A stretch of DNA of 64,000 bases from NCBI RefSeq assembly GCF_002797575.1, contig NZ_PGTX01000001.1, positions 1 to 64,000 of the forward strand. The letters are read 5' to 3'. The notes beneath the pieces were generated by a model. That model was not told the DNA's origin. It saw only the letters and a list, made by a program, of their open reading frames with translations, and ran no database searches. Made by a program: the position numbers and the translations under genes. Source of the stretch: Polynucleobacter brandtiae (GTDB lineage Bacteria; Pseudomonadota; Gammaproteobacteria; Burkholderiales; Burkholderiaceae). Below, one piece after another: positions 3,258 to 34,186 of the stretch; positions within the stretch are counted from its first letter, which is position 1; each line of letters begins with the position of its first letter.

Positions 3258-3737
3258 ATGAAACACAAACTATTTGCAGCAATGTTGATTATTTTTTCTA
3301 CGGCATCTCATGCTCAGATTCTGGATGCCATTACTGGCCATGCTCGTGATATTCGCTCTCGCTTTACTGAGCATCAGGTAATTAAGGGGGCAGTCCTTAA
3401 GAAGGGGGATATTGACGTTTTGGCAAAGGGCCAGGACATGATTCACAGCTCGTCAGGTACATGGAGCGTGATTCGAGTGGGCAATGATCTCTTTTTGCAA
3501 TCTGGAGAAAACTTCCGATCAAGTCCAGGACCAGATTATCACGTCTACGTTAGCAAAGACCCTGCTATTAAAGATAATGAACAGTTTAGTAAAGCGCAAA
3601 TTGAGGTCGGTAGACTGCTTAAGCCCAATGGTGCGGCGTATTACAAGCTCACGACAGATGATCTCGATAGCATCAATAGCGTTTTAATTTGGTGCAAGCA
3701 ATTTAAAGAGTACATTGGCTCCGCTGATTTAAAGTAA
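3258..3737 (+). CDS. DM13-domain exported protein
   Basis: The 159-residue protein begins with a signal peptide (about 1-19, ending SHA before QILD). Residues about 40-155 form a DM13-like domain, with the sequence pattern GPDYHVYVS in the middle and a final VLIWCKQFKEYIGSADL containing the single conserved Cys near the end. DM13 domains are suspected redox or electron-transfer modules of the cell envelope, but no reaction is proven. A GGG-containing ribosome site lies just before the ATG. It is followed by a MAPEG gene 64 bases downstream. The family call is good and the function is unknown. Confidence 0.75.
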   Translation: MKHKLFAAMLIIFSTASHAQILDAITGHARDIRSRFTEHQVIKGAVLKKGDIDVLAKGQDMIHSSSGTWSVIRVGNDLFLQSGENFRSSPGPDYHVYVSKDPAIKDNEQFSKAQIEVGRLLKPNGAAYYKLTTDDLDSINSVLIWCKQFKEYIGSADLK

Positions 3738-28820: not shown

Positions 28821-29522
28821 ATGAATAAAACTTACCCATCCGCAGTCGAGGCCCTCAAAGACATTTTAAAGGACGGTCAAAAACTGGCTGTCGGCGGTTT
28901 TGGCCTTTGTGGTATCCCAGAAGCATTAATTCAGGCAGTGAAAGATTTGGGTGCTCAGAACCTGACTGCTATTGCCAATAATGCCGGAGTTGATGGTTTT
29001 GGACTTGGCCTTTTGCTCAACTCTAGGCAGGTCAAAAAAATGATCGCCTCTTATGTGGGTGAGAACAAAGAATTTGAACGTCAATACTTGGCAGGCGAGC
29101 TGGAATTAGAATTTACTCCGCAAGGCACTCTAGCTGAAAAACTCCGCGCTGGTGGCTGCGGCATTCCTGCTTTTTATACTAAAACAGGTGTGGGCACTTT
29201 GGTGGCTGAAGGTAAAGAGGTCAAGGAATTTGATGGCGAAAAATACATCATGGAGCGTGCGCTTATTTCAGACATTTCCTTAGTAAAGGCTTGGAAAGCG
29301 GATCGCTCCGGTAACTTGATCTATCGCTACACCGCACGCAATTTCAATCCAGTAGTAGCGATGGCGGGCAAGATTACCGTAGCAGAGGTAGAAGAAATCG
29401 TAGAAAACGGCACACTAGATCCTGACCAAATCCACACCCCAGGTATTTATGTCCACCGCTTAGTGCTCAACACGACACCAGAAAAACGCATTGAGCAGCG
29501 CACTTTAACAACAGTGGCGTAA
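28821..29522 (+). CDS. scoA: 3-oxoacid CoA-transferase, subunit A
   Basis: The 233-residue alpha subunit has the CoA-transferase glycine-rich motif [14 protein letters not shown] at 22-35 and the [19 protein letters not shown]-like segment, and [15 protein letters not shown] in the C-terminal half. With the next gene it would transfer CoA from succinyl-CoA to acetoacetate or a related 3-oxoacid. It is probably co-transcribed with scoB 36 bases downstream. Confidence 0.92.
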
Positions 29523-29558: not shown

Positions 29559-30209
29559 ATGCCTTGGAATAGAGATGAAATGGCGGCACGAGCTGCCAAG
29601 GAACTAAAGGACGGCTACTATGTTAACTTGGGAATCGGTATGCCAACCTTGGTGGCTAACCATGTTCCTAAGGACATGGAAGTGTGGCTTCAATCTGAAA
29701 ATGGTTTGTTGGGTATCGGGCCCTTCCCGACGGAAGCAACAATTGATGCCGACTTAATTAATGCTGGTAAACAAACGATTACCACTTTGCCAGGCTCATC
29801 CATCTTCTCTTCAGCAGATTCCTTTGGGATGATTCGAGGCGGAAAAATCAATATTGCCATTTTGGGTGCAATGCAAGTGAGTGAGCACGGAGACCTAGCC
29901 AACTGGATGATCCCAGGAAAAATGGTGAAAGGCATGGGCGGTGCAATGGATCTAGTTGCCGGCGTAAAACATGTTGTTGTCTTGATGGAGCATGTAGCCA
30001 AGAAAAAAGACGGCACTGAAGAAATTAAAATACTGCCCAACTGCACATTACCGCTAACAGGAGTTGGCGTTATCAGTCGTATCATTACCGACCTTTGTGT
30101 TTTAGACATTACTCCAAAGGGGTTGAAGTTAGTTGAATTAGCGCCAGGCGTAAATAAAGATGAGGTCTTGGCTAAAACAGGTGCGCCTGTTGATACCGCG
30201 GGCTTCTAA
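29559..30209 (+). CDS. scoB: 3-oxoacid CoA-transferase, subunit B
   Basis: The 216-residue beta subunit contains the catalytic Glu in the conserved [14 protein letters not shown] motif (near residue 48), and the [24 protein letters not shown] and [19 protein letters not shown] blocks. The enzyme allows ketone bodies, possibly including those from polyhydroxybutyrate, to be used as carbon source. AGGA precedes the ATG. Confidence 0.93.
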
Positions 30210-30250: not shown

Positions 30251-32125
30251 ATGTCTGATTCTGCTCATTCTCAATCATTGCACGCCCATAAGAAGGGCGA
30301 TGCCAAGCATTCTCACAGTAAAGAAACGGCTAATCAGAACTTATTACTGATTGCTCTGATCTTGACCTTAGGATTTGCTGGGGTTGAAGCCACTGCTGCT
30401 TATTTTGCGGGCTCTTTAGCATTAATTTCAGATGCAGGGCATATGGTTACCGATGCAGCTGCATTAGGGCTTGCTCTATTGGCGCAAATGATTGCAAGAC
30501 GCCCACCGTCGGCTAAACACTCTTTTGGCTTTGGTCGTGCGGAAGCACTGGCAGCGTTTGTAAATGGTATTGCCATGTTGGCCCTTGTGGCCTGGATTGT
30601 GGGAGAGGCGCTTACCCGTTTCTTTACCCCACATCAAGTAGACGGCCTAACGGTATCCATAGTTGCAGCCGTTGGTTTGCTGATGAATATTTTAGTAGCC
30701 TGGGTGCTGTCGCATGATCTTAAGAGCGTCAATACCCGTGCAGCCTTAGTGCACGTCATGGGCGACCTCCTTGGTTCAGTCGGGGCACTCGTTGCCGGTT
30801 TAGTGATTCAATTTACCGGATGGATGCCCATTGATGCGTTGCTATCTATTTTTGTTTCCCTACTTATTTTAAAGTCCACTTTTTCGATCTTGCGTGAGTC
30901 TTATCACTTTCTTATGGAAGGTGTTCCTTTGCACATTGATTATCTTCAAGTGGGCAGTGATTTAAAAAAGATACCTGGTGTTTTAGCGGTTCATGATTTG
31001 CACGTTTGGGAAATGACTCCTAGTTTCCCGGCCCTTATTGGGCATATTGAAATTGAGAAAATGCAGGATTGGCCAGAGATCATGGCTCGTATTAATGTGA
31101 TGCTACTCGATCAGCATGGTATTGATCATGTGACTTTGCAGCCAGAGACTGATGCTGATACTAGTGCTGAGATAGCTAGTCCAATGGGATCAAATAATCT
31201 GCCAGTACGCAGGGAAGCCAAGGAGCCCAAGGAACCCAAGGCACCATTAGCTGCTCAAGCTCAATCAAGCCATCAGGGCAATACATTCTTTGTTGGCTGT
31301 ACTAGTCCTGACGGCCCTCATCAGATGGCTTATCACGTGTGGGGCGATCCTAGCAATCCTGTCCTCATGTGTGTGCATGGCCTGACTCGACGCGGAAGTG
31401 ATTTCACAAGCCTGGCACAAGCGATGTGCGACCAATACTATGTTGTGTGCCCTGACATTGTTGGACGTGGTGATTCAGATCATTTGCATAATCCAATGTT
31501 GTATGCCGTTCCACAGTATGTAGCCGATATTGATTGTTTAGTTAAAGCATTGGGTGTGAAGCAAATCGATTGGTTTGGTACTTCGATGGGGGGCTTGATC
31601 GGTATGGTGTATGCCTCGATGCCCAATAATCCGATTCGACGCATGCTGATTAACGATGTTGGTCCTACGATTGAGCCTGAGGCTATTGAACGACTTGGCG
31701 CTTATGTTGGGCAACCTTTTGCCTTTGCGCAACGTGCCCAAGCACTCTCTCGTTTGAATACTATATGTGCAACGTTTGGCGAGCACACATCAGAAGAGTG
31801 GGAGATCTATAACGGTCCTATGTTGATTCAAAAAGATGGCTTATGGCTTATGCACTACGACCCTAATATTGCAGTGCCATTTGCTTCGGTCAATCCCGTG
31901 ATGGCAAAAGTAGGTGAGATGGCGTTGTGGCATGCGTTTAAGCAAATTCATATTCCGATGCTGATTGTGCGCGGGGGTGATTCTGATTTGTTATCAGCAA
32001 AAACGGTAGCGCGGATGTGCAAGGACAATCCTTACTTGCGCAGTATCGAGATCCCAGGTGTAGGGCATGCACCTGCCTTTGTTAAAGCTGAGCAGATTGC
32101 TTTGGCCAAAGAATTCTTTAGTTAA
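30251..32125 (+). CDS. Fusion of a CDF metal-cation exporter and an alpha/beta hydrolase
   Basis: The 624-residue single frame joins two families. Residues 1-295 are a CDF (CzcD/ZnT) exporter: a His-rich N-terminus (HSHSK), six membrane segments, metal-site residues D61, H64 and D68 (SDAGHMVTDA) and H168 and D172 (HVMGD), and a cytoplasmic ferredoxin-like domain to HVTLQPE. Residues about 300-345 form a charged linker with EPKEPKAP. Residues 345-624 are an alpha/beta hydrolase with oxyanion HG at 376-377, nucleophile S445 (GTSMGG) and His H606 (GVGHAP). The frame shows no break. The hydrolase would face the cytoplasm. Its substrate is unknown. A sequencing-type frame fusion of two adjacent genes cannot be excluded. 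Confidence 0.85.
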   Translation: MSDSAHSQSLHAHKKGDAKHSHSKETANQNLLLIALILTLGFAGVEATAAYFAGSLALISDAGHMVTDAAALGLALLAQMIARRPPSAKHSFGFGRAEALAAFVNGIAMLALVAWIVGEALTRFFTPHQVDGLTVSIVAAVGLLMNILVAWVLSHDLKSVNTRAALVHVMGDLLGSVGALVAGLVIQFTGWMPIDALLSIFVSLLILKSTFSILRESYHFLMEGVPLHIDYLQVGSDLKKIPGVLAVHDLHVWEMTPSFPALIGHIEIEKMQDWPEIMARINVMLLDQHGIDHVTLQPETDADTSAEIASPMGSNNLPVRREAKEPKEPKAPLAAQAQSSHQGNTFFVGCTSPDGPHQMAYHVWGDPSNPVLMCVHGLTRRGSDFTSLAQAMCDQYYVVCPDIVGRGDSDHLHNPMLYAVPQYVADIDCLVKALGVKQIDWFGTSMGGLIGMVYASMPNNPIRRMLINDVGPTIEPEAIERLGAYVGQPFAFAQRAQALSRLNTICATFGEHTSEEWEIYNGPMLIQKDGLWLMHYDPNIAVPFASVNPVMAKVGEMALWHAFKQIHIPMLIVRGGDSDLLSAKTVARMCKDNPYLRSIEIPGVGHAPAFVKAEQIALAKEFFS

Positions 32126-32140
32126 GATATTGATTGATCT

Positions 32141-34186
32141 ATGTCAAATGCGGCTAATGCATCTGAGAAATTTAAAATAGTAGATGGCTGGTATGGTGAG
32201 CCTGCTCAAGATCATGCTATCGGCGTATTACAAGTTCTGACGAGTTTGCATTTAGACGAGTCGACCCTAACGGCAGCTAGTAACATTGCCCGCACCCATG
32301 GCAAAGAAGCGTTAATCAAGTTAATTGGTGAGGAGCCAGCAAAGCTATTAATTGGATATCGAGGGCTAAGACAGGCGCAGGGAAAGTTGGTACGTGATGA
32401 TGGCGGCCTCACCATTTCCGGACAAGAAGAAATGCTCCGAAAAATGCTATTGGCCTTTGGTGATGATTTGCGAGTGGTATTAATTTATCTTGCTTCGCGC
32501 TTGCAAACCTTGCGTTGGATTACCCAGGAGGGGATTGTCATGCCCGTCTCCTGGGCACAAGAGATTCTGAATATCGATGCCACGCTTGCGAATCGATTGG
32601 GTATTTGGCAGATGAAATGGGAGATGGAGGATTTAGCCTTTCGGACGCTTTCTCCAGATACGTATCGTGATATTGCGAAGATGCTGGATGAAAAGAGGGT
32701 AGAGCGAGAATCTTTTATTGAGCACATTGTTACTCAGCTCAAAACAGAATTGAGTAGTTCAAATATCGTAGGTGAAGTGCAGGGTCGCCCTAAGCACATC
32801 TACAGCATCTGGAAAAAGATGCAAGGCAAGTCTTTAGACTTTGCTAATCTTTATGACGTCAGAGCGTTTAGAGTCTTGGTGGATGACGTCAAATCTTGTT
32901 ATGCGGTTTTGGGTTTAGCTCATAATATTTGGCAACCTGTGCCGCGCGAGTTTGATGACTACATCGCCAGGCCAAAGCTAAACGGATATCAATCTTTGCA
33001 TACGGTAGTGATGGATGAGCATGGCGCCGCTTTTGAAATTCAGGTGCGTACGCATGAGATGCACCAACAAGCGGAGTATGGTTTGGCGGCTCACTGGCGC
33101 TACAAAGAGGGGGCTTACACCGGCGAGGCTACCCCTCGTAAACAAAATAAATTGCCCAACACGCATGCTGATTTAGCAAAGTCTGCGCATCAATCAGGAA
33201 CGCACAGCGCTGCAGTAGCTTATGAGCGTCAAATTGCATGGGCTAGGCAGCTGATTTCTTGGAAAGAGGATGCTTGGGAGCAGCTCAAACATCATGAGAT
33301 TGACGACCATATTTATGTGCTTACCCCATTAGGAAAAGTGATTTCTCTTGAGAAGGGTTCAACGCCGATTGATTTTGCTTATGCAGTCCATACCGATTTA
33401 GGGCATCGTTGTCGTGGGGCGAGGGTGGATGGTGCTATGGTGCCTTTAGAGACAGCATTAAAAAACGGTCAGACTGTTGAGGTCATTGCCGTAAAGCATG
33501 GCGGACCATCCCGCGATTGGATCAGTCCAAGCCACCAATATTTATCCTCTCAGCGTGCCCGTACTCGGGTGCGGGCCTGGTTTAATGCCGTAGACGATGA
33601 GGAGGCTGGCGTTGGAGCTAAGTCGACTGAGCTTAAGCATGACCTGAAGCTGGAAAGTAAGGTCGGCACAGCAGAGCCTGAGATTATTCTCAAGCAGAGC
33701 ACGCGCAAGCAAGGTCAAGCTGGGGATGTTTTGGTTGTTGGAGTCGACTCTTTAATGACACAGTTAGCACGCTGTTGCAGGCCCGTACCCCCGGATGGCA
33801 TTGCTGGTTTTGTGACGCAAGGTCGCGGCATATCGATTCATCGACGCTCCTGTAAGACCTTCAGAGGCCTTCTAGAGCGGGCACCTGAGCGCGTTATTCA
33901 GACATCATGGAATGGAACCTCTCCAGAAAAGTCTACCGGTGGTGATCCCCAAAAGGTCTTTCCTGCAGATTTGGCCATTACAGGTGTTGACCGTCCTGAG
34001 CTCATGCGGGAGCTATTTGAGATTTTGACGAGGCAGGGCATCCATGTGATTGATCTACGTAAGTCAGCTAAGCGAGGCATGACTCAAATATTGCTGACAG
34101 TCGAAATTCAGGACTCTGATGCCTTAAGATTCATTCAAAATAGCCTCGAAGAGGTCAAAGGGGTGACACAGGTACGCCGCCGGTGA
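32141..34186 (+). CDS. relA: RelA-type (p)ppGpp synthetase
   Basis: The 681-residue long RSH protein lacks the HD/ED hydrolase motifs in its N-terminal domain (about 20-190). The synthetase domain carries the acidic motif E270-F-D-D273 followed by YIARPKLNGYQSLHT, which marks RelA as opposed to SpoT (RFKD). TGS (near 385-450, HIYVLTPLGKVISLEKG), a Cys-containing zinc-finger-like region (RCCRPVPPDGIAGFVTQG) and an ACT domain at the end are all present. It makes (p)ppGpp on stalled ribosomes. It follows the CDF-hydrolase gene by 15 bases. Confidence 0.92.
   Translation: MSNAANASEKFKIVDGWYGEPAQDHAIGVLQVLTSLHLDESTLTAASNIARTHGKEALIKLIGEEPAKLLIGYRGLRQAQGKLVRDDGGLTISGQEEMLRKMLLAFGDDLRVVLIYLASRLQTLRWITQEGIVMPVSWAQEILNIDATLANRLGIWQMKWEMEDLAFRTLSPDTYRDIAKMLDEKRVERESFIEHIVTQLKTELSSSNIVGEVQGRPKHIYSIWKKMQGKSLDFANLYDVRAFRVLVDDVKSCYAVLGLAHNIWQPVPREFDDYIARPKLNGYQSLHTVVMDEHGAAFEIQVRTHEMHQQAEYGLAAHWRYKEGAYTGEATPRKQNKLPNTHADLAKSAHQSGTHSAAVAYERQIAWARQLISWKEDAWEQLKHHEIDDHIYVLTPLGKVISLEKGSTPIDFAYAVHTDLGHRCRGARVDGAMVPLETALKNGQTVEVIAVKHGGPSRDWISPSHQYLSSQRARTRVRAWFNAVDDEEAGVGAKSTELKHDLKLESKVGTAEPEIILKQSTRKQGQAGDVLVVGVDSLMTQLARCCRPVPPDGIAGFVTQGRGISIHRRSCKTFRGLLERAPERVIQTSWNGTSPEKSTGGDPQKVFPADLAITGVDRPELMRELFEILTRQGIHVIDLRKSAKRGMTQILLTVEIQDSDALRFIQNSLEEVKGVTQVRRR

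Follow-up and report, generated by a model that had tools for sequence, protein, structure and literature searches.

A CDF metal exporter fused in frame to an alpha/beta hydrolase in most sampled Polynucleobacter genomes: a candidate membrane tether for a PhaY2-like enzyme

Why should a metal exporter and an alpha/beta hydrolase be encoded as a single protein, and does either half serve the other? The question is raised by a gene at positions 30251-32125 (+ strand) of the Polynucleobacter brandtiae DNA analysed here (a stretch of 64,000 nucleotides, called the window), which reads as one ATG-started, stop-free frame of 624 aa. A first-pass annotation had described it as a single-frame fusion of two complete halves, and both parts of that description stand: the frame recurs at full length and free of stops in 126 of 186 genomes of the genus, and each half carries Pfam domains over their cut-offs together with conserved residues of the metal site and of the probable triad (D61, H64, D68, H168 and D172 in the exporter; S445, D579 and H606 in the hydrolase). 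We favour, as a moderately probable account of the whole, a membrane-tethered PhaY2-type hydrolase carried on a Zn-type CDF exporter, the two activities being most likely independent of each other.

The exporter half (aa 1-299; 30251-31147, + strand) is recognised by PF01545, PF16916, TIGR01297, the structure model and Foldseek, and consists of a His-containing N-terminus followed by six transmembrane helices and a C-terminal dimerisation domain. Matches over the curated Pfam cut-offs place Cation_efflux at aa 32-222 and ZT_dimer at aa 228-299, the latter marking the exporter dimer domain (PF16916), and the CDF family profiles are passed by wide intervals (PF01545, 145.7 bits against a cut-off of 26.6; TIGR01297, 266.5 bits against 82.35). 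The best profile for this half, the ZitB equivalog NF002923, scores 269 of 408 bits and so does not reach its cut-off. The five metal-site residues are present and conserved: H64 and D68 are found in 62 of 65 aligned fused rows and H168 and D172 in 64 of 65, the remainder being gaps, and N replaces H168 in one of the 29 unfused and outgroup rows. CDF proteins of the Zn(II) type are marked by an HxxxD motif in helix 2 and another in helix 5; the exporter half would thus belong to that type, with zinc as its likely substrate, metal export as its predicted activity and, probably, a homodimer as its working form.

The hydrolase half (aa 346-624; 31286-32122, + strand) is an alpha/beta hydrolase over aa about 351-618, the Pfam families of that superfamily matching between aa 370 and 610 and all above curated cut-offs, with PF00561 at 58.7 bits (cut-off 25.8) and the superfamily criterion passed; its nearest solved structures are 4ose and 3bwx. 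S445, D579 and H606 are invariant (65/65 fused rows and 29/29 other rows) and align with the corresponding residues of 3bwx, and they probably form the catalytic triad of the hydrolase. Both halves are under strong purifying selection, with median dN/dS of 0.023 for the CDF half and 0.031 for the hydrolase half over 39 pairs of moderate divergence. Between them runs a linker (aa 300-345; 31148-31285, + strand) that is predicted to be disordered, with pLDDT below 50, and that varies in length by multiples of three in relatives. An AlphaFold2 model of the full protein, built on 22 aligned sequences, begins with six long helices, followed by a small mixed domain, then by disorder (pLDDT <50 over aa 293-339) and last by a hydrolase fold; with a mean pLDDT of 67.7 and a pTM of 0.43 it lets each half be recognised but does not fix how the two are placed relative to each other. 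The hydrolase half modelled alone reaches a mean pLDDT of 72.2, and a Foldseek search with the full model returns 4ose, 3bwx and human ZnT1, ZnT3 and ZnT4 among its top matches. Judged by its sequence, the product is a true two-domain membrane protein with a complete CDF exporter and a complete alpha/beta hydrolase.

The gene lies in a putative operon whose order is kept in relatives. Upstream are scoA (3-oxoacid CoA-transferase subunit A, 28821-29522, + strand, TIGR02429 over cut-off) and scoB (subunit B, 29559-30209, + strand, TIGR02428 over cut-off); downstream is rel, encoding a RelA/SpoT-family protein (32141-34186, + strand), with PRK10872 and spoT_relA matches that are both below cut-off. 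The spacings are short: 36 bases from scoA to scoB, 41 from scoB to the fusion and 15 from the fusion to rel. Other Burkholderiaceae (L176 and L177) show scoA-scoB-hydrolase-rel and have no exporter among these genes. Because of that order, and by its length and family (an assignment made by neighbourhood), the hydrolase is probably an ortholog of PhaY2, which we take to be the same protein as PhaZc.

In the available text of the sources, the PhaY2 of Ralstonia eutropha H16, a 3-hydroxybutyrate-oligomer hydrolase, is H16_A1335 (PMC3430594, PMC3734047), and the CoA-transferase subunit A of that strain is H16_A1331 (PMC4008487), so that PhaY2 stands four locus tags after the transferase subunit, as the gene order here predicts. 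An Azohydromonas relative matched to PhaY2 is described in the portion seen as an 870-bp alpha/beta hydrolase (PMC11767486), and the oligomer hydrolases, or PhaYs, are there said to cut 3-hydroxybutyrate oligomers during polymer use (PMC3556143). In Polynucleobacter, CoA-transferase genes lie upstream in those loci that reach that far, and a 3-hydroxybutyrate dehydrogenase gene lies beside the hydrolase in 14 genomes of the genus, as it does in L179 and L180 outside it. A PHA synthase (PhaC) domain occurs in 178 of 186 genus genomes (143 of the 144 good ones), so the genus is equipped to make the polymer, and the genome of the window itself holds a PhaC_N match, a PHB_depo_C match and a 3-hydroxybutyrate dehydrogenase elsewhere. 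Against orthology by gene order counts locus L180, which has no scoAB match beside its hydrolase, and none of the equivalog models listed for the hydrolase half was passed: intracellular PHA depolymerase (NF050089) scored 48.9 of 300 bits, far below its cut-off, and MenH (TIGR03695) and PcaD (TIGR02427) stayed under theirs at 54.8 of 208.55 and 45.6 of 255.85 bits.

The spread of the fusion was scored by hand from two match searches, with the sum rechecked, over 186 Polynucleobacter genomes, window included. Besides the 126 full-length matches, nine genomes in which the search had split the gene have one open frame when the DNA is read (G002, G011, G078, G107, G109, G163, G181, G187 and G208), and in six others the fusion is seen as far as the contigs extend (G022, G080, G104, G167, G179 and G196), so that the frame across 31130-31320, which the first-pass annotation had wanted checked, is no sequencing slip. 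The tally is 141 genomes with the fusion, 27 in which the two genes stand unfused at the corresponding position in the operon (14 with a 3-hydroxybutyrate dehydrogenase gene between them and 13 without), 7 with broken copies and 11 that could not be scored. The hydrolase piece occurs alone in two genomes (G150 and G188); nine genomes, all at most 87% complete, gave no match at the first search threshold, and a looser threshold, run on eight of these nine, recovered a short exporter piece in G180. Named isolates with the fusion include P. aenigmaticus, P. sphagniphilus and P. yangtzensis, and 26 of 28 named-record loci match on both sides of the junction, the other two (L153, from Rhodocyclaceae, and L155, on a cut contig) matching the exporter alone.

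Beyond the genus, no match to both halves is found among the matches listed for 392 genomes from the same order and 368 from the same class (searches of 399 genomes, seven of them Polynucleobacter, and of 369, the window's own included, with at least three genomes in both); up to three candidates were scored per genome and the best rows listed, so a very divergent fusion might escape. Among the listed matches outside the genus none on the exporter side runs past aa 357, and those that extend beyond aa 310 cross stops or stop in the linker. Broken fusion copies were seen in seven genomes, G017, G023, G084, G086, G087, G088 and G100, at loci L040, L046, L173 and L184-L187; in at least three of these genomes (G017, G100 and G087) the neighbours scoA, scoB or rel are broken as well. 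These may be ciliate endosymbionts with decaying genomes.

A tree was built from the two halves laid end to end, with 94 rows: 65 fused, 14 separate with the dehydrogenase gene, 13 separate without it and 2 outgroup. Of the 141 fused genomes the tree thus represents 65 (53 full-length, 9 search-split and 3 contig-cut); the seven broken copies were left out, as were 27 of the 28 named-record loci, L128-L154, which are possible doubles of the other genomes and are out of the counts too. The fused rows group together in a single clade, for which one change suffices (SH-aLRT 91), and the separate-gene rows, 27 in all, fall into two further clades, one for each arrangement; the sister of the fused clade is the one with adjacent genes (SH-aLRT 92). 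These values are moderate and come from a rapid search that included two long outgroup rows. The first-pass annotation had allowed for a stop or frame break between the parts in other strains, and none of the separate-gene rows among the 94 falls inside the fused clade. The join thus seems to have arisen once in Polynucleobacter and to have been kept.

Gene order in relatives suggests how the join came about. Besides the two exporter-free loci already described, other Burkholderiaceae include L179, with an opposite-strand 3-hydroxybutyrate dehydrogenase gene ahead of the hydrolase, and L178, with 3.6 kb from scoB to the hydrolase. In another family of the order, L174 has scoA-scoB, 1.3 kb and then hydrolase-rel, with an exporter past rel on the other strand, and L180 has rel, hydrolase, dehydrogenase and exporter close together. 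The free-standing exporters near rel and the hydrolase lie on the opposite strand in both (L174, 8082-8963, 67% identity; L180, 4723-5619, 63%), so these genes are near neighbours outside Polynucleobacter too. In unfused Polynucleobacter a CDF gene lies between scoB and the hydrolase. Because other Burkholderiaceae lack an exporter there, the exporter is most likely the newcomer, which entered the space between scoB and the hydrolase in the line leading to Polynucleobacter and was then fused. In one adjacent-gene genome (G173; L175, about 3302-3480) the exporter ends in TAG and the ATGATG of the hydrolase follows directly in the same frame, which leaves the two genes a single codon away from joining, a picture of the state just short of fusion, outside the fused line itself. 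Likely forerunner states therefore survive in relatives: no exporter between, exporter between, genes side by side, and fused. The dehydrogenase gene between exporter and hydrolase (3817-4596 in L031, and in 13 further loci) occurs in one Polynucleobacter clade, and its nearest relative in the window's genome (76%) lies elsewhere, at G000:C1:361272-362045. Two long open frames, 926 and 951 aa, from G032 and G027 had been taken for a triple fusion of CDF, middle gene and hydrolase; they were rejected, since the DNA shows stops and an ordinary separate 3-hydroxybutyrate dehydrogenase gene.

Is the hydrolase made only as part of the fusion? Measured from exporter residue 299 to hydrolase residue 1 in the 65 fused loci, the linker is a multiple of three in all 65, with 17 lengths from 63 to 165 nt and at least 30 length changes on the tree. 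A hydrolase with a start of its own would have left such changes free to leave the frame; at a chance of one third per change, the frame would have been kept about once in 10^14, a rough estimate that ignores the choice of rows. There is some circularity here, since being in frame is what made a row count as fused, to which the counterpoints are that the fused rows form one clade without separate-gene rows and that the linker is in frame and without a stop in six of the seven broken copies (the six that could be measured, G017 being the other). An in-frame start with an SD-like site ahead of the hydrolase, a feature that the first-pass annotation had wanted looked for, is lacking in the window; 5 of the 65 fused loci have one, at four different places. 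Given the kept frame and the rarity of such starts, the hydrolase is almost certainly made, as far as these patterns can tell, as part of the fusion.

A gene of this kind might still yield two products, through an internal start or through cleavage in the linker that frees the hydrolase. The predicted disorder of the linker would suit the second route, and in-frame ATG, GTG or TTG codons near the junction in 64 of 65 fused loci (GTG, TTG and, at aa 312, ATG in the window), as possible starts that have no SD-like site, would suit the first. The scarcity of SD-like starts speaks against internal initiation, and frame retention shows that translation begun in the exporter continues into the hydrolase; the two points say nothing about post-translational cutting. 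We regard two products as rather unlikely.

In the tethering model, which we prefer, a flexible linker would attach the hydrolase to the exporter's C-terminal domain in the cytoplasm; the cytoplasmic placement, already suggested in the first-pass annotation, follows from membership of the CDF family. An exporter dimer would then have two hydrolases attached on the inner side of the membrane, where the serine hydrolase half would most likely cleave 3-hydroxybutyrate oligomers released from stored polyhydroxybutyrate. The fusion would fix the place and the ratio of the two activities, and coupling between them would be unneeded and is presumed absent. Surface attachment may be older than the fusion. 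The outgroup hydrolases (six) have an ATG 7-20 residues ahead of the domain; in the separate Polynucleobacter hydrolases, whose start codons are a choice made in this analysis, an ATG lies 43-76 residues ahead in 24 of 27 and is missing there in the other three. The separate Polynucleobacter enzymes bear a basic N-terminal segment and a loose stretch that the outgroup enzymes lack, and it is for this reason that we guess, on weak numbers, at an earlier anchor that the exporter later replaced. Where the dehydrogenase gene is present, in one clade, this segment has an amphipathic look, and there shuffles reached its hydrophobic moment at frequencies of 0.03-0.13 (8 segments); the corresponding range is 0.04-0.79 in the adjacent-gene clade (7 segments). 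An amphipathic helix as ancestral membrane anchor is accordingly a weak hint, exceeding shuffles weakly and mostly not in the adjacent-gene clade.

The composition of the linker raises the alternative of metal coupling, in which the hydrolase responds to metal bound at the C-terminal domain of the exporter or along the linker, so that storage-polymer use is tied to the status of Zn or a similar metal. Pooled, the 65 fused linkers hold 13.6% His and 23% Asp plus Glu, against His backgrounds of 2.5% in window ORFs of at least 200 aa and, for 24 separate hydrolases, 1.7% in their extensions at the N-terminus, and these fast-varying His/acidic linkers are a possible metal-binding stretch. The Lys/Glu/Pro linker of the first-pass annotation is therefore not general: 51 of 65 fused linkers have at least 10% His and 26 at least 15%. 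In L012, L013, L138, L141 and other fused loci the linkers are His runs with Asp or Glu, unlike the window's. Eight of the 65, however, have less than 5% His, and the window's has one His in 40 (2.5%), so that enrichment is no general rule; near copies count many times in these statistics, His-rich stretches are common in CDF proteins anyway, and the model leaves the positions of the domains relative to each other unfixed. Because the window's linker holds that single His, plain tethering is ranked above metal control, which we consider distinctly unlikely, and the link between metal export and a metabolic reaction, or metal regulation of the hydrolase, that the first-pass annotation had proposed receives no direct support, the hydrolase adjoining rel without an exporter in other genera. 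Still bolder, and in our estimation highly improbable, is that exporter half and His-rich linkers make up a metal gauge that switches a 3-hydroxybutyrate-oligomer hydrolase and has been kept through most of the genus; if true, zinc status would, within one operon, govern the use of the carbon store together with ketone-body CoA transfer and (p)ppGpp signalling.

We think it very unlikely that the fusion is a neutral accident, in which a lost stop joined two operon neighbours and the join persists solely since the hydrolase has lost its own start. Such an accident would fit the single origin on the tree, the adjacent separate genes of 13 genomes, with the TAG-ATGATG junction of L175 in the same frame, and the occurrence in other genera of either half without the other adjoining; the lack of any separate-gene row in the fused clade, despite frequent changes of linker length, tells against it, weakly, because re-splitting would need a new start and a ribosome site. 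A sequencing or assembly artefact is practically refuted by the same frame in the 126 full-length genus matches and in the genomes of named isolates. Tethering on the exporter remains the account that we prefer. The locus is a clean example of a transporter joined to an enzyme, with its frame under constraint in most of the genomes sampled from a common freshwater genus.

How does the protein compare with what is known? The first-pass annotation named no standard family with this architecture, and no listed match lies outside the genus, but the fusion of one CDF protein had been noted in 2010 in a strain of the same genus, Polynucleobacter sp. QLW-P1DMWA-1 (PMC2894845). In the accessible part of that paper the fusion takes up one sentence, only six-helix CDF proteins being analysed further, and its distribution, origin, gene context and function are not treated there; a search of open-licence papers, as far as their text was available, found no further literature on it. 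This analysis adds the genus-wide spread, a single origin for the fused genes, the constraint on their frame, a history of the operon and a likely identity for the hydrolase. The nearest solved structures to the hydrolase half, 3bwx of Novosphingobium aromaticivorans and 4ose of Rickettsia typhi (33% and 29% identity), are chains of 285 and 298 residues without an exporter part, and their titles give no function. With ZitB-type CDF exporters and ZnT proteins the fusion shares six helices, HxxxD in helices 2 and 5 and a C-terminal dimerisation domain; to our knowledge, their C-termini bear no hydrolase. PhaY2, to which the hydrolase is likened by neighbourhood and not by sequence, is in the source text seen listed as a free-standing enzyme, unlike the fused hydrolase here; the fusion thus offers a membrane-bound form of an otherwise free-standing enzyme, and a testable link between metal export and the use of storage carbon.
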